Origin: Dictyophora rubrovolvata
Lineage: Eukaryota; Basidiomycota; Agaricomycetes; Phallales; Phallaceae
Reading direction: 5' to 3'
Length of the DNA: 64,000 bases
NCBI GenBank assembly: GCA_029959195.1
Contig: CP114123.1
Location: 248,001 to 312,000 of the forward strand
Below are positions 791 to 61,900 of the stretch, in pieces. Under the pieces are notes generated by a model. That model searched no databases, was not told the origin of the DNA, and worked only from the letters and a program-made list of their open reading frames with translations. Position numbers and translations under genes: made by a program. Numbering within the stretch: position 1 is the first letter of the stretch; every line of letters starts with the position of its first letter.

Positions 791-1872
791 TCAGTGAGAA
801 ACTTGCTCAAGACGGTATTCTCCAGTCTCGGCTTCTACCTCGAATATCCAATCAGTGCTGTCAGATAGCAGTCTCAAGTCCTGAGCCCAAAGTGGTTTCC
901 GAGTCTCGATAGGACCTTCCAAAAGCGTTGTTTCCTCGTAGCCAGCAATCACATATGCTTGTACAATAGGTGTAAACTCGACGCTGAGGCTGGATCCTTG
1001 TCTTTTAAATTAAATATTCAGTCAACGTGCAAATTGAAAGAATGCAATGACATACTTGACTTTAGGGAAATAAAAAAGAGGTATGGTCCTCTTCCCGTCA
1101 AAAAAACCTGGTGATACCGATGAAACTTATTTGTTGAGGGATGAACATAAGGAGATACCTATTCCCAAACCTTGCGGAATTTTTGTGAGATTTTGAATAA
1201 CAATTTGTTGATCGCTTCCTTTCTCAGGTGCCTATAAGTCACAAGTATTGGCACAACCCAAGGGCTCGACGGATAGTATTAAGACTCTTACGGTGAAAGC
1301 AATGCCTGAGTCTCTTTCCTCAAGAGCTGTCTTTTGACCAGGCTAGATCGTAGTTTAGGATGGCATACACATGGTGTGTATGTACAAACGCACCTCGATC
1401 TTTATCCACAAATTGGGATGAACGTGCTTGCCTTCGATTATTTGAGGATAACAGACGAAAAGTCTGTTTCATTTCAATCAGATCGCGTTCAACCATGCAA
1501 TTACTATGAAATACGTGCTGGTTTATACAGGTGGCTTCCATTGCCTCAATTCCTGTCGAGAAGACACAGTCAACATCATATCTAGAAATTCCCTGGCACA
1601 TACCTTTACCCGAAAAGTTGACAACTCTAAGTGGAGAAATTCATTAGATGGAGCTTAATCGATCCGACCCGAGGGGAAAGAGTATTACCTCCATGCCACA
1701 GAGAATTGGGTTTGATACAGCTGTTTCGGATCTGGGACTAGAAAGCATAGTAAGAGCGTCGCGGGCTTTTCCCCGATGTTTCCACTACAGATGATGAGAA
1801 ACCATGAGAGCTTTGAAATGGAGGTGGCCCTGCCACGTACCGCCTGATGTTGAGGGTTTTTCTGACAAACAT
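791..1872 (-). CDS. Family copy A, about 181 aa, unknown function
   Basis: This is the minus-strand member of a four-copy family (A-D) in this window that I do not recognise. Eight exons by paralogue alignment: 1872-1841, 1626-1604, 1552-1519, 1463-1394, 1342-1292, 1231-1159, 1107-1056, 1001-791. Exons 1-6 have exactly the same lengths (32, 23, 34, 70, 51, 73 nt) as in B, C and D, and the joined frame is open to a TGA at 791-793. The protein starts MFVRKTLNIRR, has no signal peptide or membrane helix, and ends with the family hallmark block: an FTP motif, AYVIAGY, and a W-[AI]-QDL segment. Intron 3 uses a GC donor (gcacgt), as in copy C. A TATAAAC box lies near 1950-1944, about 75 nt upstream. 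It is the most diverged copy. The mixture of short hydrophobic strands suggests a soluble beta-rich intracellular protein, which is inference only. Confidence 0.75.
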
Positions 1873-1879
1873 GATATCC

Positions 1880-2955
1880 ACAAGAAGAGTGAGTACGTAT
1901 GACCCTTGTATGAGTGAGAATTGACTGGATTTTTTTATCGTTGTTTATAGTAAGAACGAATTCCTGTTGTCTGATTGAACTTTGAAATATGACAAAGACC
2001 CCGAATGCATCGGACTCTCTGTCATTCCAGATACACGCCCAACTGCGGGTGCAGGTTATTTTCACCTGATCTAGCAAAGCCTGGAATGGGGAAATCACAA
2101 CAATTCGCTTGATGCCGCTTAAGATTTGACGCCGACGACTGAATAGAAAACTGAATTGAAGCTAGATCAGTAACCTGTCCCCCCAGTTGGGCGTGTACGA
2201 AAATCTTCCTCAGGTACATTCAAGTGTAATTTTTTGAATTGAGAAGTCGACATTTTTGTGAAATTTGGCGGACACGGAAATTTTCCTCTCCAAAATGCTC
2301 CTCAATTTTGTTTCGAGCGAAGAGTCCATTTCCGCCGCTGTTTCATGGAATGTACATATTAAATTGGCATCATGAACGCACAGACATATTCAATTGAAGC
2401 CCGCGTGTTGAACAACTACCAAAGATGCTTTGTTCCTTTGTTAGCTTCTTGGATTAAAGTCTCAATGGAATTAAAAAAAAAGGCATGATATTAATTGTGG
2501 TCGTGCGCGAATTGATGTCGTAACAAAATGTCCTACTGCATTTAATTCAAATAGTATTTAAATGAGAGCGTTGACGTAAAAATAAGAGTTCTGTGTCAAC
2601 TTAAATCAACATGTGTAGGCAAAGTGACCATTTTTGGTGTTCTGATGCCTACGATACCCGGGAAACGTTTAGAGGAAAGAGCAGATAAGACGGCTATATT
2701 TCAAACTACATAGAAGAGATCGTAAAATCAAAGAAGGCGACTGCGTTCGATTTAATATTTTTTCGGTATGAGAAAGAGGCTAAACGGAAACAACTGGAAA
2801 CATGAGAAACAAAGGAAGGTTTGATTATTGAACTCGTCAGGAGTGACTCTGGAACGCCGTGCATTAGCATGTTACAAAGAACTGGCTATGGGACAGTCGT
2901 GGCAGATCGGGAGCTTGAAAGGATAATAAGAGACGGGTATTCCTCCGACATCTCC
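1880..2955. other. Intergenic, upstream of copy A and before the unit B repeat
   Basis: No gene is supported. The part next to 1880-2000 is the presumed promoter of copy A. The rest is AT-rich with only short frames. A 10-bp word (cgcccaactg at about 2037) recurs inverted near 2190, which is too little to call an element. Confidence 0.4.
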
Positions 2956-2956
2956 A

Positions 2957-4325
2957 CTAAAGGCGATAGCTGCTAGACGGTGGTTGGACGTACCGGGGAG
3001 TTTTCTGGAAAACCATTAAATTGGAAGTAAATATGAGGTGATGAAAAAACGAATAGTTTTTTTCGTCGCTATTTGGAGGATAATCGATTTTCAGTTGAAT
3101 TGATATGCACTCCGAATGCATGGGGTTCTTGTAACTGTCTTCCATTACAAAATGAAATGGAACTTCCTTTGTTTAATTTTTTCAAGTGTTCCCATACAGC
3201 AGCCCCGGAGCCATTGAAATGTACGAGCGGAGCATCATTAGGCCCAAATATCTACAAACTAGGCACCATATATGCATAGAATTATTCAATCGAATAACGA
3301 TTATTCACATGTCGAACACGCACCACAAACGTTTCTTTCTTCATCGGCTCCCGGACCAAAATTTTATTTATGGAAACGAGAAACGATGACGTTTAAACAA
3401 TTCCAATCGCTAGCGAATAGAAGTTATCGCAGTCCCATTGTGTACTTCATTCCAATATTTGATTGGTAACTGAGGGGTGACTTGAAAGAGGGAAAACAAA
3501 GGGTGACGTACGGGAAACTATGCAATAGAAGCTCGGTGAAAAACAATTCAAGGTACAGTTTACAATCGCTTCTCGGTAAGATAAGGTCGGGAAACAAACA
3601 TCCCCGTTTTCTCAATTATCTCGGTAATTGTGATATAGGCGGGGAGCATCTTCGTTTGAATTTAATGGTTTGGGGTAAATAAACGTCGATGTAATATCGT
3701 AAGAGAATTCACATACGTATCAATATGGACATTTTGAATAGCGAACGAACATTGGATACCGTTGTGGACGGAACTCCCCATTAATCTGTATGTCGCGTTC
3801 GATATTACTTGCCTCTGTTTCAAAGATTAAGACGTTTGGACGCGCGGAACATGGAAAATGCCACAAGACGCAGCCCGCGTATGTTACTTGTAACGGCACG
3901 AAGCAAGGTCCGATGCCGGGTGTGTCCGACCTCATAATGTGAATCAAATGTAACACACTCGCTTACCAGACTTGCTGACTAAAGGAAGTGCGAGCCAACG
4001 AAGAAAGGTCACTTGCCTCACTGTTATAATTGAATAAGGGCGTATGTATACGGTGCCATACTGCCAACCCATTATTTTTGGAAAGTCAACAATGCCTCCG
4101 CTTGTGTATTTCAATAGCCCTTGGGAGAGCCACAGTTCAAATTCGCTTAAACAAAATTGAACAAAAGAAGTTCCATGTTTGTCGATTTTTACAGACGTCG
4201 ACTTCTCAGTTCAATATTCATTTGAACGCACTTGACTTTGATGAAATCGTACACGAAACCAGGGTTTGGAAGCCTTTCCATGCCTTGTTATGCCTTGAAA
4301 TAACAATTCAAAGCGAATTTTTCTC
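2957..4325 (+). repeat. Amplified 5' flank, unit B
   Basis: This non-coding-looking 1.4 kb block upstream of copy B recurs upstream of copies C (about 9778-11250) and D (about 13319-14769). Shared landmarks in order: the ggaggataat word, the tattcaat/aacgattattc block, the caccacaaacgtttctttct block, a run ending acaattccaatcgc, the gcttctcgg segment, the gaattcacatacgtat segment and the GAAGTTCC words before the TATA box. Unit B lacks part of the captured exon seen in C and D: the sequence jumps at about 3840 from gacgtttgga straight to the cgcggaacatgg core. Unit B is therefore either the deleted or the older form. Confidence 0.75.
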
Positions 4326-4334
4326 TATAAAAGG
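4326..4334 (+). promoter_or_regulatory. TATA box of copy B
   Basis: TATAAAAGG, followed at once by a tandem pair of the 12-mer aaaaggacagcg. The same box lies exactly 86 nt upstream of the ATG in copies B, C and D. Confidence 0.75.
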
Positions 4335-4411
4335 ACAGCGAAAAGGACAGCGGAGGTCTCATCCGTTCCTCAATCACCTCACATTTTACTCATTCACTTT
4401 TCTCTGCGATA

Positions 4412-5533
4412 ATGGTTTTCACCAGGATTCTCAACATCAAACGGTGCGTCCCACCACTATCTAAATCTCATCGCCGCTCATCGTATACACAGTGGAAGCG
4501 TTGGGGAAAAGCCTGTTACGCTCTTGTTGACTTTCCAAGTCCCCGATCCGTCGAAGTTGTACCATGAGCAATTTCCCATAGCATGGAGGTAATAACTAAT
4601 AACTTTTTCTTCTCGCAAGCTTCATCTAATATATTCCTCCGTTCAGAGTCGCCGATTTCACGGGTCAAGGTATGCATCATAAAGTATTTTCGTGGATGAC
4701 ATGATGCTGACCGTGTCTTTTATGACAGGACATGAAGACTTAACTGCCAAGTACATAAGCCAGTATGTGTTCCATTGCAACTACATATTGAGAGCGATTT
4801 GATCGAACTAAAACTAGACTTTTCGTCGCCAATCCTCAAATAACCAGCGGCAACCACGTCAAGCCCAACCAGTGGACAAAAATTGATGTGGGTTTCGTTG
4901 ATTCACGCATCCTCTATTTCATTATAAGTCAATATTATTATTAGCCTGGTCAACGGACAACTCTTGAGAGAAAAGGCGGGGATGTTACTTTCACGGTGAG
5001 ACTCTTAAAACCATCTGTCCAGCTGCCATTGGCGGTTTGAAGTCGATATCAATAACCGGTATGACCTACAGCCACCGGTGAAAGGGATCGGTAAACTTAT
5101 AACCGCTGAGAACAACACACAGAGAAGAGAAGATTTTGCTATAGGTATGGCTTTTTATTTGATTATCATTCTTTGATGAGCTAACTTCCATACTACATAC
5201 CACCAGGTATTGTTGAAGGGAACGATCATGCCATACCCCTTCTTTACTTCTCAGATATTGGGTATGACATTGCCCTTTATTCACCCGGGCCGAATACTTA
5301 TATACTTCTTCCGCAGACAGGGATCGAGTCTCAGCGCTCAGTTCACACCTGTGTTACAAGCATACGTAGTTTCCGGTTATCAAGAAACGACCCTTTTGAA
5401 AGGTGATATCGAAGCTAAGAATCCATTTTGGACCCAGGATTTAACGCAACTACGAGACACGACCGAATGGGTGTTCGAGCGAGATCCCGGCTCAGGGGCA
5501 TACACTATCGTCCCAGGCGCATTGGCGGAATAA
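4412..5533 (+). CDS. Family copy B, about 184 aa, unknown function
   Basis: Plus-strand member of the four-copy unknown family. Exons: 4412-4443, 4647-4669, 4729-4762, 4818-4887, 4945-4995, 5072-5144, 5207-5261, 5317-5533 (555 nt including TAA). The start MVFTRILNIKR is shared with C and D and lies 86 nt after the TATA box. Intron 5 (4996-5071) is 13 nt longer than in D and would look like a frameshift plus stop if read as exon; the gtgag...ctacag borders conserved in all four copies show that it is an intron. The C-terminal half has the family blocks FTPVLQAYVVSGYQE and W-x-QDL, then a W-V-F segment, and ends GALAE. There is no signal peptide, transmembrane helix or known catalytic motif that I can see. 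The 3' flank carries reiterated cttgtttt words, also present after copy D. Confidence 0.8.
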
Positions 5534-5539
5534 ACATGT

Positions 5540-6900
5540 CGTCTTCCGAATCACTCTTGACACTTTTAATCACCAAGGTTTGAGTTGTTTTCTTGTTTTC
5601 AGGTTCTATATCTGTCTGCCTTTTTTACATATTACAAAAACAAAAAAAAATGCATGTCTCAATGTTGATCGAACCTGAATGCGGTCGACTTTTCTTGTTT
5701 TCTTGTTTTCTTGTTTTCTCATTTTGTGATCTTCCCATTGCACTTCTGAAATAAAGTCGTTTTATACACTCGATTCGCGATCTAACATATGGTCTCTTGC
5801 ACGCGTCTAAAGGATCACTCTTCTTTTAGTCTTGGATGCCACACACCGACGTACTACACACATGCAGTCCGGATAAAAATCATTCCCCTGAGCCCTCCAT
5901 ATTCTCAGTAGTTCCGTATGCGATATCTCTGTCTGAATCGTAAGCTGTAGTTTGATCACCGCAAGCACCGAGCATCATTTAGTGACAAGCTGAACATACG
6001 TACATACAGTCCTAGTCACATTTTGGTGTATCGAGGGTAGTACACAGGCTGTTTTATTTACACCATGAGAATAGACATTTGGGGCATGGAGAAAATAGTA
6101 ATCGTGTCCGTGTGTGGCACGTCGTCGCATAAACCACTAGGTTCATATACTCGTGAGAATGAGAAAGACACAACTTAAAACTCGATGATAACACGTGTTC
6201 TATACAGACCGTATTGTACTAAATACAATCGACCGCAGACAACATGCCGCTAGTATAATCCACCTCTCTTGCATGATTATATGTTATCAGATATGGCGAC
6301 AAGCATGCCCAACAGCTCTACCATGGAAGCACCTTATCAGGTTGGTGGCCGACGGGAGGTTAGTCTGCGTTGTGGGACTCGGAAGAACAAAGGCCACGTT
6401 CGTTGTTGGCTCCTTGGAGGAGCTCTGATCTTTTTTCACACTCTGCGGCCCTGCAACACAGTTATGGTAGTTAGTGACATTTGGTCAGAATGTTCGAGTG
6501 AAGAATGCAACCAAATAATAGATTATCATATGACATAATTATTTCGTGAAAACACAAAATAGATAACGGTGCTTTATCATTATTTCAAATATTCATCAGG
6601 CATTATATCACATCAAAACATTAAGGGATTCAGCCCATTCACTATTTCACTGTTTTGAGAACGCGGTGAGTCAAGGCTCTCAATACGAAGGGGATAAAAT
6701 GCCATTGGAATAAAAGAAGGGTCATATTGAAAAAAAATAGGAACCAGGAAAAGGTATTACAGAGTGAAAATGAAACTGAAATTGAAGCATTTAAGAAAAA
6801 AGAGTATCCTCGGGGCTACTACTAGCGAAGGACATAAACGAAACAACAATGGGGCCAAATATTTCCAACAACATATGTAAGTGCCAACGTAGTAGTCCCT
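5540..6900. other. Intergenic; 3' flank of unit B
   Basis: The first 300 nt are the 3' flank of copy B. They hold reiterated cttgtttt words at about 5593-5716 and an aataaa-like signal near 5750, and they match the 3' flanks of C and D. Beyond about 5850 the similarity stops, and no gene is supported up to 6900. Confidence 0.45.
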
Positions 6901-6903
6901 CCC

Positions 6904-9164
6904 TTACTCGTCGTCATCGTCATCACTCAGGCTGTCGTCGACACAAGGGCTTTCGTTTATTACCGTGACATGGTACGTGTGTTGATGTACGGTAGAACTC
7001 GTTGCTGTGAATGTTGAGGTTACGTTGGTGGGATTCTACATAAATGAGAAGCTTGTAACACCCGAATAGGGTTTTATGATACGTTTACCTGGGGGGAGGA
7101 CATGGCTAATTGACAGTCTAAGGAAGGGGTATTGAGTTAGTCTTTCGCAACGAAATGTGCTATGTAGTGTACCTTTACAAAATTTGCAAACTGAGTTCAG
7201 AGAAGTGGATACCAAAAAATGTGTTTGGGTTGGGGATGGAAAAATATAAGAGGGTTTTTAAGCATCGAGTCCAAACGCGTCAACTTTGACTTTAGTGGAA
7301 TCAGTCGCACCTAATCCACATTGAAAACATACCTTTTGATCGAGGGAGGCTCGAAACCCTTGCGCGCAATTCAGATGACATGATTATCATCCGTTTTTTC
7401 GGATATTAAGAAATTTTTCATGTGAATTGCGGACCGCTGATAAGGGTGATCATCGCGTTTTTTGGCAAGAATCCTCATGGCATGTTGAGTGAACGCCCAG
7501 ATCCGGTGATCAAAGATATAGTAGTACCAATGGTTATGCATCATAACTCATCGTCGACTACCTTGATCACAGAGCGGGTGAAATATCACCTGGTTCGACG
7601 AGGAAAATTTGATATGGGAATTGGTAATACCTGCAATATATATTGTATGTGTTTGTAAAGATTTCGAAGGCAAAAACCTCTTAAGTGCGCAATTCAGACC
7701 ATATCACTAACCTTCCATTTTTGACATTAAGAGGATTTCATTATCATAATCGATAGAGCTGATAAGCACGATGATCGATTTTTGAGTCAAAAGGTAATTA
7801 ATAAACAGGAATGAATGGACGGTGGCGTCTTTTGGTTACATCTACCTGTCATATATTACCTCCTGCAATGTCCTCATCCCAAATTCAGTGATTAACCAGT
7901 CGTACTAATTACCGCATGTGATGTCCGTTGTTTTGATAACCATCTAACCTGTCACTTGAGCTGGAACTTTCCGAGTTTCCTTGGTATGTATCCTTATTGT
8001 CGGAATCCTCCGAGTCGTTCAAGTCGCTGGCCGTGAGCGCGACATGCATTCTACTGCTGTTAAAATGTTGACGACCGTTAGACATTGACGACCTCAAAAA
8101 AAATCCAACAGGCACCATTGTAGGCCACCTGATGTAGATTCCATGGGGCGAGCTTGAACTGACAGAGAGACATCTCAAAAACCGCAGAAAATTCAATTAC
8201 TCTTATTGGAACATCTAAGAATTTGAACGAGCTACAGCACCGGGATATTACCACCAGATTCCGCCTGCAATCCTCGAATTCGCGGAGAACGTCGCAAGGC
8301 TGAGTTGTCACTGGGCGTACATAGAGTCTGACCGGCCTGAGCAGCGGACTCACCCAATTGCAACTGCAACTGCGACTTTTGTGATGAACTTGTGGTCCGA
8401 TCACCATCAGGTGTATCGATTTCGCGAGGGGCGTTTCCATGACACTGGCACTTCAGGAGTGCCAGTAGTAGCAACCTGACTGGTACTAGATTCAGAGCTC
8501 CAAGTCGACCTGCGAAAGCGCGACATCGACCCCCTCTCGTCAGCTGACTACTACTAGTAGCATCCGAACAGTGTTCCGAGGGATTTGAATTGCGGAGTTT
8601 TGACTTTGACTTTTCAGGAGGAGCACGAGCACTGCCAGTATGATCACAGCCTGAGCATCGGGTGCTCAACGTCAGCTGTGGGTGTGGATGTGGGTGCGGG
8701 TGCGGGCCTTTACTAGTAGAAATGGCATGACCGGACCCGGAATTCGAGGAGCGTAATGCGCAACGCCTCAGCCTCGGCTTCGGCATCTCAGACGCAGCTT
8801 GTCCAGTATTGGGGTTACTCGGCTGTGAACACCGTAAGGAGATGGATCAGCATCGTGTAGGCCTATTCGACTACATTAGATTCCCCGAAGAACTCGATCT
8901 ATTAAGTCTTGATTCCCTCCCAGAGAATTTCCGGACCAGCATTCAAAGGATCACCCGACTGAGCGTTCCAAAACAAAACTATCCGGCGAAGTCTTGGTTC
9001 TTGATCAGAAGTAGCTTGATCAGCGTAGACATTAATCGAATCTCCATCTCCTGGGGAACTTTGAGGTTTGGGTCCAGGGGTAAGCTAGTAGACGAATAGC
9101 CTGGAGGTCGTTCAACAGCGAATCCAAATGCTTGGGATACAGATAGGCGTGGGCGGTATCGCAA
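6904..9164 (-). pseudogene. Decayed or unresolved minus-strand gene with acidic tail
   Basis: Several stretches look like protein, but I could not join them into one frame. A convincing 3' exon is 7035-6904, with an atgtag acceptor, a Thr/Val-rich segment and a tail rich in Asp (SLSDDDDDE) ending in TAA. Further upstream a Ser/Asp/Glu-rich frame (about 8080-7909) and Ser/Arg-rich frames (about 8790-8230) occur, with a codon repeat encoding HPHPHPHP near 8690-8710. Near 9100-8900 another open stretch switches frame. The mix of low-complexity, frame-shifting segments suggests either a disordered protein with many introns or a pseudogene. No domain is recognised. Confidence 0.25.
7355..7800. repeat. 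Pair of diverged direct repeats, about 110 nt
   Basis: Two blocks, about 7365-7470 and 7690-7800, share the order gcgcaattcaga, atcatatg-like spacer, ttttttcggata or ttttgacatt, aagaaattttcat, then gctgataag-[ag]-[gt]-tgatcatcg and ttttttg. They lie inside the unresolved minus-strand gene and may be duplicated intron or exon pieces of it. Confidence 0.4.
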
Positions 9165-9777
9165 AAAAACTACTGTATTGTGGTTGAAGGATGTTTGAAT
9201 GAATGTTTGAATTTGCTACTTTAATTATTTGGAATACGAGGTTGGTACTGTTGGACAAGGGTAGTCCATGGTTTGGTTGAATCGTCTAAAGGAAGTGAGT
9301 TAACCTATAGTGGTGCAGTGACGAGTGGGCGTTCCGGTATGTTCACCTGAGCAATAACATACTCATCACCCGAGCCGACGGAGATTTGCTGATCTACGGC
9401 ATGTGACGGTGTCTGGCGTTTAGAGCTTTAGGTTGAAAGATCGGTGCGAAGGGGGAAAGTGTTGAGTTACTTTACAGTTACTGCATGACTAAGCGTTAGC
9501 TGTACATAGTAGTTACGCGCATAGCGCGGCAGCGCCCATGTTCCTCACTCGTGTCGTTACACCGAGTGAGGTACGTAGTTTATTTCCTGTTATTCTTTTA
9601 TTAACAAATAGCCATTATTCTTTAGTAAGACTGCTAGCGAACGAGTAATGGGTAAAAAATGTGAAGTGAAAATAGTATGTATCAAGAGCTCTGAATCCCT
9701 CTGATAGAGAGAGTGGGGGAAGAAAACGAAGTTATTGCAGAATCGAGTTGAAGAAATGGACTGAAGAACAACATTTA
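9165..9777. other. Intergenic before unit C
   Basis: No gene is supported. AT-rich sequence with a small palindromic gagtgag/ctcactc pair near 9545-9570. Confidence 0.4.
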
Positions 9778-11250
9778 TTTTGAGATTTCTCTGGAAAAAC
9801 TATTGAATTGGAAGTAAGTACAAGGTGATTAAAAAACGAATAGTGTTTTTTTTGTTGCTATTTGGAGGATAATCTGTTTTGCGTCGGGTTGGGCTTGATA
9901 CGCACTCTGAATGCACCGGGTTCTTGTAACTGTCTTCCCTTAGACTCATCCAAATGGAATGGAACTTCCAGACCGCAATCGTGGAGTTATTGAAATGGGG
10001 AATCATTAGTCCCAAATAACTGCAAACTTGGCACTAAATATGCACAGCATTATTCAATAGAATAACGATTATTCGCACGTCGAACACGCACCACAAACGT
10101 TTCTTTCTTCATCGGCTCCCGGACCAAAAATTTTATCTATTGAAACGAGAAACGACGACTTTTAAACAATTCCAATCGTTTGCGAATAGAAGTCGCAATA
10201 CTGTTGTATACTTCATTCCAATATTTGATTGATAACATTGAGGGGTGACTTGAAAGAGGGAAAACAAAGGGTAAACTATGCAATAGAAGCTCGGTGAAGG
10301 ACAATTAAGATACAGCTTACAATCGCTTCTCGGTCAAATATGGTCGATAAACCCCGGCGGCCTTCTCGCTTTCTCAATTATCTCGGTAATTGTCATATAC
10401 GCGTGGAGCATCTTCCTTTGAATTTAATGTGGGGGTAAATACACGTTGACGTAATATCGTACAAGAATTCACATACGTATTAATATATCCATTCCATTTT
10501 GCACGACGAGCGAACATTGCATACAGTTGCGAACAGAACTCTCCATTAATCTGTATATCGCCTCCGATATCACTTGCCTTTCTGTTTCAAGATTAAGACG
10601 TTTGGACTATCCTTCATTATGACCACTGCCGCCAACAGATGTATCTCGTAACCCACTCCCAATTAGTCGTCTACATTTTACAGGTTCTAACCAGTACTCG
10701 CAAATTTTCTATCTGTGTTGGCGACGCCGACAAGCTGGAAAAGGCGCGGAACATGGAAAATGCCACAGGATGGGGCCCGCGTATGTCGCTTGCAACGGCT
10801 GGAAGTAAAGTCCGATCCTGGGTATGTTTGCTCTTTAATAACCGATATCATAAAAAGAGTGATATGGCATGCTCGCTTGTTGTGGAAGACTGCTAAAGGA
10901 AAGGAATCTCACTTTCACGTAGATATTCGAGAGAAGAAACTTGTCACTTGCCTCACTATTTCAATTGAATAAGGCTGTATGTACATGGTGCTAGCTTGTT
11001 ATTTTATCAATGAGTTAACGATGCCTCCGCTCGTATATTTCAATAGGTCCAGGGCCACAGTTCAAGTTCGCTTGAAAAAAAATAAATTCATAAGAAGTTC
11101 CGTGAAGTTCCATGTTCGTCGATTTTGGCAGACGTCGACTTCTCAGTTCAATACTTGACTGTGATAAAATCGTACGCGAAACTCGGGGATGTCTGCTGCA
11201 TTTGGAACATATGTCTATGGCTTGGTACTATGCGAAAGCTAATCTGACTC
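9778..11250 (+). repeat. Amplified 5' flank, unit C
   Basis: Second copy of the upstream block described for unit B. It is closest to unit D: from about 9866 (gaggataatctgtttt) onward C and D align through the captured exon, the TATA box, the family gene and the PTR2 5' region. It therefore belongs to a tandem duplication of roughly 3.4 kb. Confidence 0.8.
10684..10821 (+). pseudogene. Captured 138-nt exon-like fragment, copy in unit C
   Basis: A 46-codon open segment bounded by a good acceptor (acattttacag) and donor (gtatgt) inside the amplified upstream block. The frame reads V-L-T-S-T-RKFSICVGDADKLEKA, then RNMEN, RMSLATA and SKVRSW. The same fragment, of identical length and still open, is at 14192-14329; unit B keeps only its right part near 3840-3915. 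No neighbouring exons can be joined, so it looks like one exon of another gene trapped in the unit, or the residue of an upstream gene lost elsewhere. The parent family is not recognised. Confidence 0.45.
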
Positions 11251-11259
11251 TATAAAAGG
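11251..11259 (+). promoter_or_regulatory. TATA box of copy C
   Basis: TATAAAAGG followed by the doubled aaaaggacagcg word, 86 nt before the ATG at 11337. Confidence 0.75.
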
Positions 11260-11336
11260 ACAGCGAAAAGGACAGCGCAAGTTTCATCCGTTCCTCAATC
11301 ACCCCACACTTTACTTATTCACTTTTCTTCGCGATC

Positions 11337-12430
11337 ATGGTATTCACTAGGACTCTCAACATCAAACGGTACGTCCCACCACTGTATAGATCTCATGAGC
11401 GCTCATCGTACACAGTGGAGATGTCGGGAAAAAGCCCGTTACACTCTTGTTGTGTTTTCAAGTCCCCGATCCGTCGAGGTTGTACCATGACCAATTTTCC
11501 ATAGCATGGAGGTAATAACTTTTCTTTATGACAAGCTTAATCTAATAAATTTCATTCAGAGTTGCTGATTTCACGGGTGAAGGTACTATGCATCATAAAT
11601 ATGTTTATGGATGACATGATGGCTGACCATGTCTTTTATGACAGGACATGAAGACCTGTCCGCCGAATACATAAACAAGCATGTGTTCCATTTCAATTGC
11701 ATATTGAGAGCGATCTAATCGAGCTGAAACTAGACTTTTCGTCGCCAATCCTCAAAAAACCAGCGGCAGCCACGTCAAGCCCAACCAGTGGATAGAGATT
11801 GATGTGGGTTTTGTTGACTCACACGGCATCTATTTTATTAGTAATTCAATATTATTATTAGCCTGGTCAACAGACAACTCTTGAGAAAAGCGGCTCGGGC
11901 GTTATTTTCACGGTGAGGGTCCACAAACGATCTATCTAGCTTGAAGTCGATATAAATAACTGGTATGATTTACAGAAACCGGAAAAAGGGAGCGGTGATC
12001 TTATAATCGCTGAGAACAAGACAGGAAAGGAACGAGATTTTAGTATAGGTATGGCTTTCTATTCTTTGGTCTTTCAATGAATAGCTTCCACACGTTCCAT
12101 CAGGTATTGTTGAAGGGACAGATAATGCCGTACCCCTTCTTTACTTCCCCGACATCAAGTATGCAATTACCCTTTATTCACCTGGACCGAATACTTAACT
12201 TCTTCCTTAGACCGGGATCCAGTCTCAGCGTCGAGTTCACACCTTTGTTGAAAGCATACGTAATTTCCGGTTATCAGGAATCGAAGATTTTGGCAGGTGA
12301 TATCGAAAATAGGAACCCAATTTGGATCCAGGATTTAACGAAACTACGAGAATCGACCAACTGGGTGTTCAAGGTACTAGATCCCCACACTGAGACGTAC
12401 GCTATCGTCAAAGGCCCATTTACGGAATAA
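11337..12430 (+). CDS. Family copy C, about 185 aa, unknown function
   Basis: Exons: 11337-11368, 11560-11582, 11645-11678, 11734-11803, 11862-11912, 11976-12048, 12104-12158, 12211-12430 (558 nt). Intron 3 starts with a GC donor (gcatgt at 11679), as in copy A, whereas B and D have gtatgt. A TAG at 11937-11939 first looked like a nonsense mutation, but it lies inside intron 5, whose borders are conserved across the family, so the gene appears intact. The protein begins MVFTRTLNIKR, carries LSVEFTPLLKAYVISGYQE and W-I-QDLTKL near the C-terminus, and ends GPFTE. It sits between its own duplicated flank and the truncated PTR2 fragment. Function unknown; no secretion or membrane signal. Confidence 0.78.
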
Positions 12431-12916
12431 ACATGTCATCTTCTGAATCACTTTTGTGACAAGCTCAATAACCAAGCTTTAAGCTGTTTTCTTGTTTTAA
12501 GGTTCTATCTCCGTCTACGTCTTTTACAAATTACAAGAAAATGTATGTCTCAAATGTTGATCGAGCTTGAACGCGGTCGACTTCCTTGCTTTATGATCTT
12601 CTCATTGCACTTCTGAAATAAAGTCGTTCTATACACATGATTCCAGATGTAACGTAAGGTCTCTTGCACATGTCTAAAGGATCACTCTTTCCTCAGACTT
12701 GAATGCCGCACACTTGATCTTTTTGATATAATATGATACTCCGTGAAGATTCGAAATGATAATAAAGCGCCTCATAGCTGGAGCATTTCATGCTCTATGC
12801 TATACGTCTCCACGCGGTGCAGTGAATAATAATCCAATCAATAATTGATTACTTTGTTAGTATAATTCACCTAATTGGCATTCTTGATCGCGGTTATATG
12901 GGTCTTGTTTTCTTCA

Positions 12917-12925
12917 TATAAAAGG
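12917..12925 (+). promoter_or_regulatory. TATA box of the truncated PTR2 copy
   Basis: TATAAAAGG 63 nt upstream of the ATG at 12980. It corresponds to the TATAAAAG box of the intact PTR2 gene at 17296-17303, so the promoter was duplicated together with exon 1. Confidence 0.65.
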
Positions 12926-12979
12926 AGTGCAGGGTAAGAATGGAGGTTTTCTTTCCTCCTTCCCTTAACACACATCAAA

Positions 12980-13318
12980 ATGACCGTCGCGCGAGGAAAT
13001 GAATTCGCCAATTTTGAAGGTAATCTAGATGGCCCACGACATGTATCCGTGCACGGTTATGAAAAACGGACCATGTGCGTTGGTGACGTTGACGATCAAG
13101 TCGCCGCCGTTCATGCGAGTCGGGACGAGGAAGAGGAGGAAGACATTGTGATTTATGGAGAGAATGTCGAGTTTCCTAGCGAAGAGGAGATTGCGACTCT
13201 TACACATGTTGCGGATAAAATCCCGATCGGTGCGTTTGCTATTGTTAGTATAGTGGAGCTCTGCGAGAGATTTGCATACTATGGTGGGTATCAATGGTCG
13301 AGGATGACACCCCGATTA
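12980..13318 (+). pseudogene. 5'-truncated duplicate of PTR2 (promoter plus exon 1 only)
   Basis: The segment encodes the PTR2 N-terminus: MTVARGNE, an acidic stretch with a five-Glu run, the EEIATL segment and ELCERFAYYG, closely matching exon 1 of the intact gene at 17354-17642. After the conserved exon border (TATG|gtgggt) the first 30 nt of intron 1 are still similar (caatggtcgag-a/g-atgac), then the sequence changes at about 13305-13319 into the start of unit D. All transmembrane exons of a PTR transporter are missing. If still transcribed from its intact TATA promoter it could give only a short polypeptide of about 120 aa, reading into unit D until a stop at 13349-13351. It marks the breakpoint of the tandem duplication. 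Confidence 0.85.
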
Positions 13319-14769
13319 CCTTCGAGGATAATCTGTTTTCCGTCGAATTGAACTTGAAAACTTGATACGCACTCCGAACGCATCGGGATCTTGTAACTGT
13401 CTTCCTTTAGACTCACCCAAGTAAGTGGAACGGAACTTCCTTCGTTTAATTTTCTTCAAGCGATCCCAGACCGCAGCCCTGGAGTTATTGAAATGTACGA
13501 TTGGAGAATCATTAGGCCCAAATAACTGCAAACTTGGCACCATATATGCACAGCATTATTCAATCGAATAACGATTATTCACATGTCGAACACGCACCAC
13601 AAACGTTTCTTTCTTCATCGGCTCCCAGACCAAACGTTTATGTATTGAAACGAGAAACGATGACTTTTAAACAATTGCAATCGCTTGCGAATAGAAGTTA
13701 TCGCAATACTATATCTGATTAGTAACAATTGAGGCGTGACTTGAAAGAGGGAAAACAAAGGGTGACGTACGGGTAGACTATACAATAGAAGCTCGGTGAA
13801 AAACAATGTAAGGTACAGCTTATACAATCGCTTCTCAGCCAAAGTCAAATTAGGTCGATAAACCGCGCCAACCTCCCCGCTTTCTCAATTATCTCGGCAT
13901 ATACGCGTGGAGCATCTTCCCTTGAATTTAATGTGGGGTAAATACACGTTGACGCAATATCGTACTAGAATTCACATACGTATTAATATATCCATTCCAT
14001 TTTGCATGACGAGCGAACATTGCATACAGTTACGAACGGAAGTCTCCATTAATCTGTATATCACCTCCGATATCACTTGCCTTTCTGTTTCAAGATTAAG
14101 ACGTTTGGACTATCCTTCATTATGACCAGACCACTGCCGCCAACAGATATATCTCGTAACCCACTCCCAATCAGTCGTCTACATTTTACAGGTTCTTACC
14201 GGTACTCGCAAATTTTCTATCTGTGTTGGCGACGCCGACAAGCTGGAAAAGGCGCGGAACATGGAAAATACCACAAGACGCAGCCCGCGTATGTCGCTTG
14301 TAACGGCACGAAGTAAAGTCCGATCTTGGGTATGTTTGCTCTTTAATTAGCCGATATCATAAAAGTGTGATATGCCGCGCTCGCTTGTTGTGGAAGACTG
14401 CTAAGACTGCTAAAGGAAAGGAATCTCACTTTCACGTAAATATTCGAGAGAAGAAACTTGTCACTTGCCTCACCATTTCAATTGAATAAGGCTGTATGTA
14501 CACGGTGCTAGCTTGTTATTTTATCAATGAGTTAACGATGCCTCCGCTCGTATATTTCAATAGGTCCAGGGCCACAGTTCAAGTTCGCTTGAAAAAAAAT
14601 AAATTCATAAGAAGTTCCGTGAAGTTCCATGTTCGTCGATTTTGGCAGATGTCGACTTCTCAATTCAATATACTTGACTGTGATAAAATCGTACGCGAAA
14701 CTCGGGGATGTCTGCTGCATTTGGAACATATGTCTATGGCTTGGTACTATGCGAAAGCTAATATGGCTC
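13319..14769 (+). repeat. Amplified 5' flank, unit D
   Basis: Third copy of the upstream block. It starts abruptly inside former PTR2 intron 1 sequence with the gaggataatctgtttt word found in unit C at about 9866, and runs through the second copy of the captured exon to the TATA box of gene D. Confidence 0.8.
14192..14329 (+). pseudogene. Captured 138-nt exon-like fragment, copy in unit D
   Basis: Twin of the fragment at 10684-10821: same acceptor and donor, same length, and an open frame with KFSICVGDADKLEKARNMEN conserved. Differences fall mainly in the second half (T-R-R-S-P-R for T-G-W-G-P-R). Retention of the frame in both copies may reflect recent duplication rather than selection. Confidence 0.45.
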
Positions 14770-14778
14770 TATAAAAGG
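14770..14778 (+). promoter_or_regulatory. TATA box of copy D
   Basis: TATAAAAGG followed by the doubled aaaaggacagcg word, again 86 nt before the ATG (14856). Confidence 0.75.
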
Positions 14779-14855
14779 ACAGCGAAAAGGACAGCGGAAA
14801 TTTCATCCGTTCCTCAATCACCTCACACTTTACTTATTCACTTTTCTTCGCGATC

Positions 14856-15949
14856 ATGGTATTCACTAGGACTCTCGACATCAAACGGTACGTCCCACCA
14901 CTGTATAGATCTCATGAGCGCTCATCGTACAAAGTGGAGATGTTGGGGGAAAGCCCGTTACACTCTTGTTGTGTTTTCAAGTCCCCGATCCGTCGAGGTT
15001 GTACCATGACCAATTTTCCATAGCATGGAGGTAATAACTTTTCTTTATGACAAGCTTAATCTAATAAATTTCGTTCAGAGTTGCCAATTTCACAGGTGAT
15101 GGTATGCATCATAAAGTATTTCTATGTCGATTACATGATGCTAACCGTGTCTTTTGTGACAGCACATGAAGAGATCCGTTCCGTCTATATAAGCCAGTAT
15201 GTGTTCCATTGCAATTGTATATTGAGAGCGATCTAATCGAGCTGAAACTAGACTTTTCATCGCTGTTCCTCAAATAACCAGCGGCGGCCACGTCAAGCCA
15301 ACCACGTGGATAGAAATCAATGTGGGTTTTGTTGATTCACGCAACGTCTATTTGACTACAATTCAATATTATTACTAGCCTGGTCAACAGACAACTCTTG
15401 AGGAAAAAGGCTCGGGCGTTGGTTTCACGGTGAGGGTCCACAAACGATCTGTCCAGCTTGAAGTCGATATCAATAACTGGTATGATTTACAGAACCCGGT
15501 TCTAGGGACTCCTAACCTTATAATCGCTGAGAACCACACACAATATAAACAAGGTTTGAGTCTAGGTATGGCTTTCTATTCCGTTATCATCTTTCAATGG
15601 ATAGCTTCCATACTACGTACCACCAGGTATTGTTGAAGGGACAGATAATGCCGTACCCCTTCTTTACTTCCCCGACATCAAGTATGCCATTACCCTTTAT
15701 TCACCTGGACCGAATATTTACTTCATCCTTAGATCGGGATACAGCCTCAGCGTCGAGTTCACACCTGTGGTACAAGCATACGTAATTTCCGGTTATCAGG
15801 AATTGTCCATTTTGAGAGGTGATATCGAAGGGAGGAAACCAATTTGGATCCAGGATTTAACGGAACTACAAGACACGACCAACTGGGTGTTCAAGAGAGA
15901 TTTCGAAACTGGGGAATACACCATTGTCAGCGATGCACTTGTTGAATAA
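14856..15949 (+). CDS. Family copy D, about 184 aa, unknown function
   Basis: Exons: 14856-14887, 15079-15101, 15163-15196, 15252-15321, 15379-15429, 15493-15565, 15627-15681, 15733-15949 (555 nt including TAA). All introns are GT-AG and the spliced frame is open from MVFTRTLDIKR to DALVE. Shared family blocks: a V-A-x-FTG segment after exon 1, PQITSGGHVKP, a PGQQTTLE segment at the start of exon 5, then EFTPVVQAYVISGYQE, W-I-QDL and a N-W-V-F-K segment. There is no signal peptide, no transmembrane helix and few cysteines. The first intron (about 190 nt) is much longer than the others and itself conserved, so it may hold regulatory sequence. The function is unknown. The gene is immediately followed by the PTR2 promoter region. 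Confidence 0.82.
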
Positions 15950-16296
15950 ACATGTCATCTTCTAAATCACTCTTGACAAGTTCAATAACCAAGCTTTGAG
16001 CTGTTTTCTTGTTTTTTTTTTTTTTTTCAAGTTCCATCTCCATCCTACGTCTTTTACATATAACAAAAAATTGTATGTCTCAAATGTTGACCAAGCCTGA
16101 ACGCTGTCGACTTTTCTTGTTTTCTTGTTTTATGATCTTCCCGTTGCAGTTTTGAAATAAAGTCGTTTCTATACACACGATTCCAGATGTAACGTAAGGT
16201 CTCTTGCACGTGTCTAAAGGACCACACGCTTCCTTCAGACTTGAATGCCGCACACCGTACAGAATCAAATTAGTATCGAGTATGTGCTAAACCATG

Positions 16297-16401
16297 GTAT
16301 CGTACCCCATGAAGATGCGAAATAATAATAAAACGCCTCATAGCTGGAGCATGAAACGCTCCATCCGAGTCCAATACGTCTCCATGGGGTACAGTGGATA
16401 C
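16297..16401. mobile_element. 105-bp foldback element near the PTR2 promoter
   Basis: Terminal inverted repeats: GTATC plus GTACCCCATG on the left (16297-16311) and CATGGGGTAC plus GATAC on the right (16383-16401). An inner hairpin GGAGC/GCTCC lies at 16346-16362. A diverged version with weakened arms lies at about 12735-12830 in the duplicated copy. It is too small to code; the structure fits a MITE-like or hairpin insertion that predates the duplication. Confidence 0.5.
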
Positions 16402-58996: not shown

Positions 58997-61900
58997 TTAC
59001 ATACACAGCTCCTTTCCTTCTTTGATAACAGCAAACAAAGAACTCAACACAATGAACATAAATGAGTTCAATCCAAACACGCTATACGCGGTGCTGGGGC
59101 TTGTCCGAAACTCTGACAAACCAAACTTCCACGCCGCCCAAGCTCGATTTGCCCATTCATAACCGGAAACTTGGGCTTTTGGATCGTCACCCTTCTCTAA
59201 AATGACCCAAACTTGCCATGCCAATTGACTAGTCTCTTCTTTGAGAGATATACACAACTCATCTCTCCCGTGAAGATTGAAAGTCTTGGCTAATATCGTG
59301 CCCACAAAAATTTCTTCTTCACTCAGTTTTACGCCGCTGTACAGGCCTAGTCCCAACATGTAAGAGTCTCGAAAATGCTGCATTTTGGAAACGAAATGAT
59401 TAAACAGTTGAGGGATGTTTATACCCGTCGTCCTTGAATTAAGCCCATCTTGACCGGATGGTTGATTTGAAATGACACAAAGCGAACGTAATTCCTTCTC
59501 CAGATGGGACGTTATTGTCTCATAAAAGGCAAGCGTGGTCTTATTCGCTGCGATCACTTGCTCGGCCGCCGTCGTACCATCGTCGCGGGAAAGTGCCTCA
59601 GCCAAATGCACAAGCTCTGAATCGACAGTCCTATACAAATGTCCAAGGACATGTTTCGAGGGATAATATTTGATCTTTCCAGCATCAACTTCAAGCTCCG
59701 GTCTCAGGTAATCGGGTTTTTGACCTTTTTTCTTCGGGTAAGGTATGTCGTTCTTTAGGACTGGCAAACCCGTTTTTGAAAAATCTACAGCTTGACTATG
59801 CAGACGCGCCAGTTTTATACAATTCGGATGGTGCACTCCGGATTCCTCGGCGATACGAAGAAAGTTCGTTGAAATAAGGCCGATGCTATAGTAAAACGTT
59901 AGGAAGTTTGTCGTTTTAATGGTACTGTTAAATACCGCACGTGTCGCGCAGAATAAAATCTAACACAAAATCAATGATGTCATCTACTTTGCAGTCATGA
60001 TCCAACTCTTTGTTTGTACTCGTTGGATTGTATTGCAGGGGAGAAAATGGATTCGTAGGGTGCAGGTCCTTGAGAGCGATAATATCGTACATGTCCCCGT
60101 CTAGGTCTGATCCACTGCACTTATTAGGAAGCGGGCGATCACCTATATAATTGGGAAGATTTAAAGAGTTCGCGTTTGCTTCCTCTAAATCCAGAAGGCA
60201 GCAAACATACCTTTTTGAGAAAATACCACACAGTTTTTCAGCTCTAAAAGCGGACAGTTCGGCGGGAGATTTTTACGCGATACGGCCGTTGCGAACTGCA
60301 CGTCTCCAGGGTGTATAACAGGAGATTTATAAATCAGCACTTTGCCTTCCACCTCAACCAATTCGTTGTTTTCAACAACAGGTACTAGAAGAATGAAATG
60401 AAATTAAGTGATAATGCAATAAAAAAGTTCTACATACCGAATATCTCTTCTGGTTGCAGAATGCTGAATTCATCGATCGTGCCAACCAACTTCCAGCTCC
60501 GAGGAACAGGAATTTGCATCTTGTACTTGAGATTCCTCATCATATGATATAAAGCCACACTCATACAACGTTCTATAAAAGGATGTTTCAGAGCGGTACC
60601 AATTGTGTTGAGTTTATGTAGGTTCTGCAACGTCGCCGGGAAACCAAACGATGAACCCATCGCATAAACATCAAGGAATTTTCCCGTATCTTCAAGGGAT
60701 TGGAGTGAGACCGCTTTTTTGGCTTGCGCGATTGCCTCTCTTTGGAGGTTCAAGAAGACTTTCCGAGGCACGCCTCTACCATAGAGAATTGTGATGAGAG
60801 GTCTGTTAAGCCGGACTCTTTTGGTTCGATCGAAGGAACGGGCAATCTCGAGGTGATAATGTGGTACTTCGAATTTCCTCATAGATGGGCGGAGGCAGAT
60901 TACGCCGCCAGACAGAAGTGGATTGAGGGTTATGATTCCTTTCGCTCCTCCAATTCTGATTTGATAAACACTTGGAGGAGGAAAACGAGAAAGAATGGTA
61001 GATTCTGGTGTTATGTCATGTATTTTCCCTTGTTTGAAAAGCAGTTCACGATGAATAGCTATTCCCATTTCTGGGGAAAAACTACCAACACCATCGGTGA
61101 AACAATAGAACTTCTGTTGTCCATGCTCACTTGAGCTTTCGGTCCCCACCAGAAGATCAGATTGAGGCACGGGCCGCTCCACATCGTCAACATAAATCAT
61201 TTCGCCTTGAGCGTCATTTATAATCACAGATGGGTTAGTTGCCGTAAAAGCTTGTGCCAATCTTGCTCCAAAGCGTGCTGGACAACGGGTCAACTGTCCT
61301 GGAAATTCCATACCAATCGAAGTACGGATAGAATCCGCGTTAACTTGTCGTTGACGAATTTTGAGTGGATACATAAACCAGAATGACAACTCCTTAAGCG
61401 AAGAATGTGAATAGTGAAGATACTGGAAACTGCAAAGGTTGATTAATATTCGTTAGCTGCGTACTCAAAGCAAACCCATAATGACTTACTGATGCCCAAT
61501 GAACGAGAAGCCTCTTCTCATAATTGTGCCAATATGCTCATTGACAAATCTGGTTTTATCGATGTTTTGGTTTTGAAATCGAAGCGGAAGGCCTTGCTCA
61601 TCAGTGAATGAAACTCGTAAAAAATGATCGTGGTGATTAGGATATGCCCGAAGAATACGATTGGACATGGCCAGAAAAATCGTTTGAAGGTTAAATCCAA
61701 AAGGCATTATGTTGATATGATAACATTTCGTTTGACCAGCTTCTCCGTCGGAGCTGAGGTTCAAATACACGTTTCGTTTTTCGACATCTTCGAGCGCCTT
61801 CGCGAAACAATCACGAACGCCGCGGAAACAGTAAGGCCGTTGGTCTTCGAATCCTCGTAATATGGAGCTTAGCTGCCGGATGACATCTTCAGTAAATACA

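Follow-up and report, generated by a model that had tools for sequence, protein, structure and literature searches.

A clustered family of nine-exon genes in a mushroom-type fungal genome, with signs of diversifying selection in exons 4-9

A 64,000-nucleotide (nt) stretch of the Dictyophora rubrovolvata genome (assembly GCA_029959195.1; positions 248001-312000 of contig 7, in a genome of 28.2 Mb on 11 contigs; hereafter the window) carries near its start four related genes, here termed A, B, C and D. The original prediction, made from this DNA alone, had described them as an unrecognised four-copy family with eight exons and proteins of 181-185 amino acids (aa). The four gene positions and strands proved correct, the exon lengths of 32, 23, 34, 70, 51 and 73 nt and the shared intron phases were exact in every copy, and all four spliced frames are open. 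The eight-exon model itself did not survive: the former first intron holds a further coding exon of 96 nt, so that each gene has nine exons and the corrected proteins measure 213-217 aa. Exon borders were derived from borders conserved in an alignment of the four window copies with two loci found by DNA search, and give the following models in window coordinates.

791..1872, minus strand: gene A, 213 aa; exons 1872-1841, 1784-1689, 1626-1604, 1552-1519, 1463-1394, 1342-1292, 1231-1159, 1107-1056, 1001-791
4412..5533, plus strand: gene B, 216 aa; exons 4412-4443, 4493-4588, 4647-4669, 4729-4762, 4818-4887, 4945-4995, 5072-5144, 5207-5261, 5317-5533
11337..12430, plus strand: gene C, 217 aa, borders also obtained with a spliced aligner; exons 11337-11368, 11416-11511, 11560-11582, 11645-11678, 11734-11803, 11862-11912, 11976-12048, 12104-12158, 12211-12430
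14856..15949, plus strand: gene D, 216 aa; exons 14856-14887, 14935-15030, 15079-15101, 15163-15196, 15252-15321, 15379-15429, 15493-15565, 15627-15681, 15733-15949
1689..1784, minus strand: exon 2 of gene A, 96 nt, in frame, with conserved AG/GT borders
4493..4588, plus strand: exon 2 of gene B, 96 nt, conserved borders
11416..11511, plus strand: exon 2 of gene C, 96 nt, conserved borders
14935..15030, plus strand: exon 2 of gene D, 96 nt, conserved borders

Nor is the family confined to four copies, as had been thought. A fifth tandem copy, E, lies at 244.7-245.8 kb of contig 7, about 2.2 kb before the window edge, giving the order E(-) A(-) B(+) C(+) D(+) along the contig, and a sixth, unlinked copy, G, was found by protein search on contig 1 at 2.680 Mb. 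A spliced protein-to-DNA aligner, checked by its recovery of the borders of C, was used to model G within positions 2677500-2683500 as a nine-exon gene encoding 220 aa. G shares 45-52% protein identity with the other copies, while the most diverged tandem member is A, with 52% identity to C. The genome thus holds at least six intact copies, together with broken and partial ones; all copy counts are lower bounds, as the genome search scored only the best candidates.

The newly recognised exon 2 is flanked by AG and GTAATA in all five clustered genes, contributes 32 conserved codons that are in frame and open in A-D, and measures 96 nt in E and in the unlinked G as well. In gene C its product, including the codons split by both phase-2 introns, is GDVGKKPVTLLLCFQVPDPSRLYHDQFSIAWR. 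It had been missed because 96 is divisible by three and both flanking introns are in phase 2, so that the frame stays open with or without it. The lesson for annotation is that a frame-neutral exon of this kind can drop out of a gene model without leaving a broken frame behind.

All six intact copies have nine exons with equal phases, and in all six exons 2-7 measure 96, 23, 34, 70, 51 and 73 nt. Exon 1 has 32 nt except in G, where a start one codon further upstream makes it 35 nt; exon 8 has 55 nt (52 nt in A and E) and the last exon ranges from 211 to 226 nt. The resulting proteins span 213-220 aa, and 65 positions are invariant when all six are aligned. That G, diverged in protein, keeps the lengths of exons 2-7 exactly indicates that the architecture is shared to more than a chance extent. 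All introns start with GT or GC and end with AG; the donor of intron 4 is GC in A (window position 1518) and C (window position 11679) and GT in the other four intact copies. With eight introns per roughly 650 coding bases the genes are dense in introns, but to describe them as extremely fragmented was an overstatement, as the intron lengths of 47-82 nt are usual in mushroom-type fungi. Read by eye, the six proteins show no obvious signal peptide or membrane segment.

We then compared exon with intron divergence, excluding the splice-site bases of introns. Between B and E, exons 4-9 differ at 39 of 497 positions (7.8%) and introns at 9 of 396 (2.3%; P 1.3e-4); between C and D the corresponding figures are 96 of 500 (19.2%) and 40 of 371 (10.8%; P 4.2e-4), where an apparent misalignment of intron 3 of C would understate intron conservation. 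Exons 1-3 differ at 0 of 151 positions in B/E and at 8 of 151 in C/D. In B/E, introns 1-6 are identical in all ungapped columns, with exon 6 86% and exon 7 81% identical. Four of the ten pairs among A-E (BE, CD, BD and DE) show the excess of exons 4-9 over introns at P of about 0.01 or less, and taking exons 4 and 7 alone strengthens the contrast (P 2.7e-5 and 2.6e-7), but these exons were chosen after seeing the data. Exons therefore outpace introns between recent duplicates, and do so in exons 4-9 only. The statement that coding sequence and introns have both diverged misses the main point: where the duplication is most recent, introns have changed less than coding sequence.

The nature of the coding changes was examined next. 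Among the 40 coding differences between B and E, 34 are non-synonymous, as are 13 of 13 changes assignable to the B lineage and 9 of 11 assignable to E. The rate of non-synonymous change (dN) exceeds intron divergence with bootstrap support of 1.0 in both B/E and C/D. Distant pairs behave otherwise: the whole-gene ratio of dN to the synonymous rate dS (omega) lies at 0.15-0.49 in all nine pairs that include A or G, with dS of 0.77-2.61, several values being near saturation and dS of exons 4-9 alone not estimable for BG and EG. These distant pairs reflect long-term constraint.

Codon models were fitted to a 216-column alignment with at most one gap per column, leaving out G because its dS is near saturation. 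A single-omega model gave 0.82. When branches were separated, omega was 1.83 on the B, C, D and E tips and 0.51 elsewhere (P 5e-6), with the tip value above 1 at P 0.008. Among site models, M2a was preferred over M1a with twice the log-likelihood difference (2dlnL) at 43.3 (P 4e-10) and 14.7% of codons placed at omega 7.5; in 24 null simulations 2dlnL reached at most 4.79. The site test remained significant with A-D only (P 5e-7) and in separate segments of the alignment (columns 51-150, P 1.6e-4; column 150 to the end, P 6e-6). Exons 1-3, by themselves, gave no signal of positive selection in this test (2dlnL 0) and a constrained class at omega 0.13. Sites with posterior above 0.7 number 23 among the 165 codons of exons 4-9 and 0 among the 51 of exons 1-3; exon by exon, from 4 to 9, the counts are 3/11, 1/23, 2/17, 6/25, 0/18 and 11/71 codons. 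Those above 0.9, in the numbering of C, are 56, 58, 80, 103, 106, 119, 120, 178, 189, 201, 204 and 212. Taken together, exons 1-3 are under purifying selection and exons 4-9 carry clear signs of diversifying selection. The original prediction had argued for selection from the open frames; pairwise rates, the exon/intron contrast, codon models and null simulations support a stronger statement than was made there.

Database searches left the family unnamed, as it had been at the outset. Against Pfam, with E values admitted up to 10, A, B, C, D and E had no match, and G had a single weak one, to Enas (E 0.13; 12.8 bits, below the cut-off of 22). None of five members matched NCBIfam, and one of five had a PHROGs match, to a nameless family at E 0.16. 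Profile searches of the PDB yielded nothing significant, the best hit being a designed immunoglobulin dimer at E 1.1 with a five-member profile and E 0.19 with a six-member profile. Pattern-based scans returned 57 pattern matches in bacterial and archaeal genomes and 5 in viral contigs, none of which was confirmed. Two xIxPG motifs had suggested an internal repeat of two domains, but profile self-comparison gave no support for it. We found no description of such a family in the excerpts of the literature at our disposal. Since the searches covered Pfam, NCBIfam, PHROGs, the PDB, prokaryote genomes and viral contigs, relatives may well exist in other mushrooms. The family is an orphan whose evolution is of a known kind; it is real, looks functional and is probably lineage-restricted, and its members are small and probably cytosolic.

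The arrangement of the cluster records several duplications. B and E occupy the arms of an inverted repeat that flank A, the E arm lying outside the window, about 3.6-0.5 kb before its start, whereas C and D belong to direct tandem units of about 3 kb each. Short upstream elements, read from the sequence, accompany three of the genes, a TATAAAA box standing exactly 86 bp before the ATG in B, C and D.

2734..5818, plus strand: duplication unit of B, which forms a 3.1-kb inverted repeat (97% identical) together with the E unit outside the window
9862..12828, plus strand: duplication unit of C, 85% identical to the D unit and in direct tandem with it
13321..16400, plus strand: duplication unit of D, a direct tandem copy of the C unit
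4326..4332, plus strand: TATAAAA box of B
11251..11257, plus strand: TATAAAA box of C
14770..14776, plus strand: TATAAAA box of D

Between the C and D units, at 12851-13309, lies a truncated peptide-transporter gene (PTR2, POT family) of which the 5' end is left. This fragment is 78% identical to the start of a fuller copy past D, at about 17.2-19.65 kb, and is probably a leftover of the tandem duplication. Decayed relatives of the family itself were also found: a last-exon remnant with an in-frame TAG at 190.5 kb of contig 7 (scan score 174.7), a last-exon fragment at 222.4 kb of the same contig (115.3) and a frame-shifted partial copy at 2.696 Mb of contig 6 (111.2). A short, weak match at 2.720 Mb of contig 4 scored 45.0, as compared with 31.3-35.0 for reversed sequences (n=4) and 28.5-40.2 for scans of the other strand (n=6). 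On contig 5, an inverted pair of very distant relatives lies at 208.7 and 219.9 kb (scores 78.5 and 70.1, mainly from the last exon). Reading the former by hand, we recognised a first exon in phase 2 and an exon 3 that measures exactly 23 nt (RVFDFPAQG, against RVADFTGEG in C); its middle part differs from the family and gave no confident model. The pair may represent a sister family.

Elsewhere in the window, a scan of ten open-frame pieces pointed to a peptide transporter, an F-box-like protein, an RNA-dependent RNA polymerase, a methyltransferase and an oxidoreductase. The pieces of the RNA-dependent RNA polymerase gene (PF05183) lie at 59000-61452 on the minus strand; this enzyme is a component of fungal RNA silencing. 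Across the genome, DUF6535, which we take to be a typical Agaricomycetes domain, has 52 matched stretches (51 above the family cut-off) on contigs 1-7 and 9-11, with a dense group at 359-884 kb of contig 2. The abundance of this domain and introns of 47-82 nt indicate that the fungus is probably a mushroom-type basidiomycete and are consistent with an Agaricomycetes genome. An affinity to Omphalotus found no support in a TP-methylase search, whose two matches fall in a single gene that reads as uroporphyrin-methyltransferase-like.

How might such a family work? Copies have spread by tandem and inverted duplication, each taking with it its own upstream region and nine exons. Residues 1-51, encoded by exons 1-3 and held constant, would most likely serve as a scaffold or a shared interaction part, while exons 4-9 change under diversifying selection at sites dispersed among W, P, G and Y residues that are invariant, as would be expected of a surface for binding foreign targets that themselves evolve. 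The proteins would most likely be stored in hyphae or fruiting bodies and act on fungivores, parasites or competitors. We tentatively favour, at a little under even chances, a role in defence or recognition inside the cells of a mushroom-forming fungus, because a constant N-terminal part joined to a fast-changing remainder in several copies would be the legacy of an arms race, and because cytoplasmic fruiting-body proteins toxic to fungivorous nematodes are an established class (PMC6238071; PMC4704728). The more specific proposal, of an undescribed hypervariable immune-type family within the cell, whose constant N-terminal part carries a fast-diversifying target-binding part in an arms race with fungivores, parasites or foreign hyphae, is possible but doubtful.

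Several results weigh against the reading as a defence or recognition family. In six of the ten pairs among A-E, namely BC (P 0.60), CE (P 0.66) and all four that include A, exons 4-9 show no excess divergence relative to introns, and the pairwise excess of dN over dS is not significant alone (bootstrap 0.962 for B/E and 0.894 for C/D). The maximum-likelihood codon model was custom-written and run on five of the six intact copies, A-E. The null simulations were free of recombination, and exchange between tandem copies may inflate site tests; this caveat is weakened because the signal persists without E and because conserved introns lie between diverged exons. Any greater hydrophilicity of the selected sites is non-significant, whether they are compared with the remaining sites (P 0.057) or with the remaining variable ones (P 0.32); their position on the surface is therefore an assumption. 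No fold was recognised, and a structure prediction for exon 9 alone, made from the four window sequences, was uninformative at a predicted local distance difference test score of 43.7.

A rival view is that the pattern is a by-product of duplication, in which relaxed constraint and gene conversion between tandem copies make the exons of proteins with an ordinary cellular role look faster than the introns. Between B and E, exons 1-4 and introns 1-4 do not differ at all, pointing to conversion or a very recent duplication of that stretch, and exon 7 of E is equally close to C and to B (0.81 each). Relaxation alone, however, should not lift exons above the intron rate, and conversion tracts would be expected to bring introns along; moreover, the signal stays without E and in separate segments, and the recombination-free simulations never reach it. 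We consider this account unlikely. Much the same standing is given to self/non-self recognition within the fungus, in which the variable part would tell whether hyphae or nuclei are kin or foreign, each copy supplying an alternative specificity. Diversifying selection and tandem copies would fit it equally well, and fungal recognition proteins are often cytosolic, but no NLR, HET or HeLo-type domain was recognised in the proteins by Pfam search, and several intact copies in one assembly also speak against it.

A drifted member of a known cytoplasmic mushroom defence family, such as a lectin, a cysteine or serine protease inhibitor or an aegerolysin, would share the size, the apparent lack of a signal peptide and the multi-copy nature of the genes described here (for the class, see PMC6238071); with no significant similarity in Pfam or the PDB at E values up to 10, we regard such an origin as somewhat unlikely. 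Reproductive proteins also show diversifying selection, which would suit a rapidly evolving protein of fruiting-stage development or mating, but the ten scanned pieces of the window point to functions other than mating or development, and this alternative appears very improbable.

Returning to intracellular defence or recognition, fungal innate defence is poorly catalogued, most families having been found through screens for abundance or toxicity. Here, selection alone marks out an unannotated family and names residues to test. If the interpretation is correct, the family would be a new addition to the intracellular effectors or recognition proteins and a clear example, outside animal venoms, of accelerated exons.

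Three known systems come closest. Like the cytoplasmic fruiting-body defence proteins of Agaricomycetes, among them the galectins CGL1 and CGL2, tamavidin and MOA, the proteins described here are small, apparently signal-free and multi-copy, and come from a genome consistent with that class of fungi; they differ in having no lectin, biotin-binding or ricin-B domain recognisable by Pfam search. The mycocypins (clitocypin and macrocypin), which are mushroom cysteine-protease inhibitors, are multi-gene, heterogeneous and cytosolic, as the present family is or, in its location, probably is, but they are beta-trefoil proteins of about 150-170 aa, and the present family has no sequence match to them in Pfam or the PDB. 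In its mode of evolution, the family recalls the accelerated exon evolution of venom and similar gene families, whose introns are more conserved than their exons: here too the introns of recent copies are the more conserved, codons reach omega above 1 and the copies stand in tandem. In contrast to venom-type families, however, this one is fungal and apparently intracellular, and its acceleration is limited to exons 4-9, while exons 1-3 are constrained.

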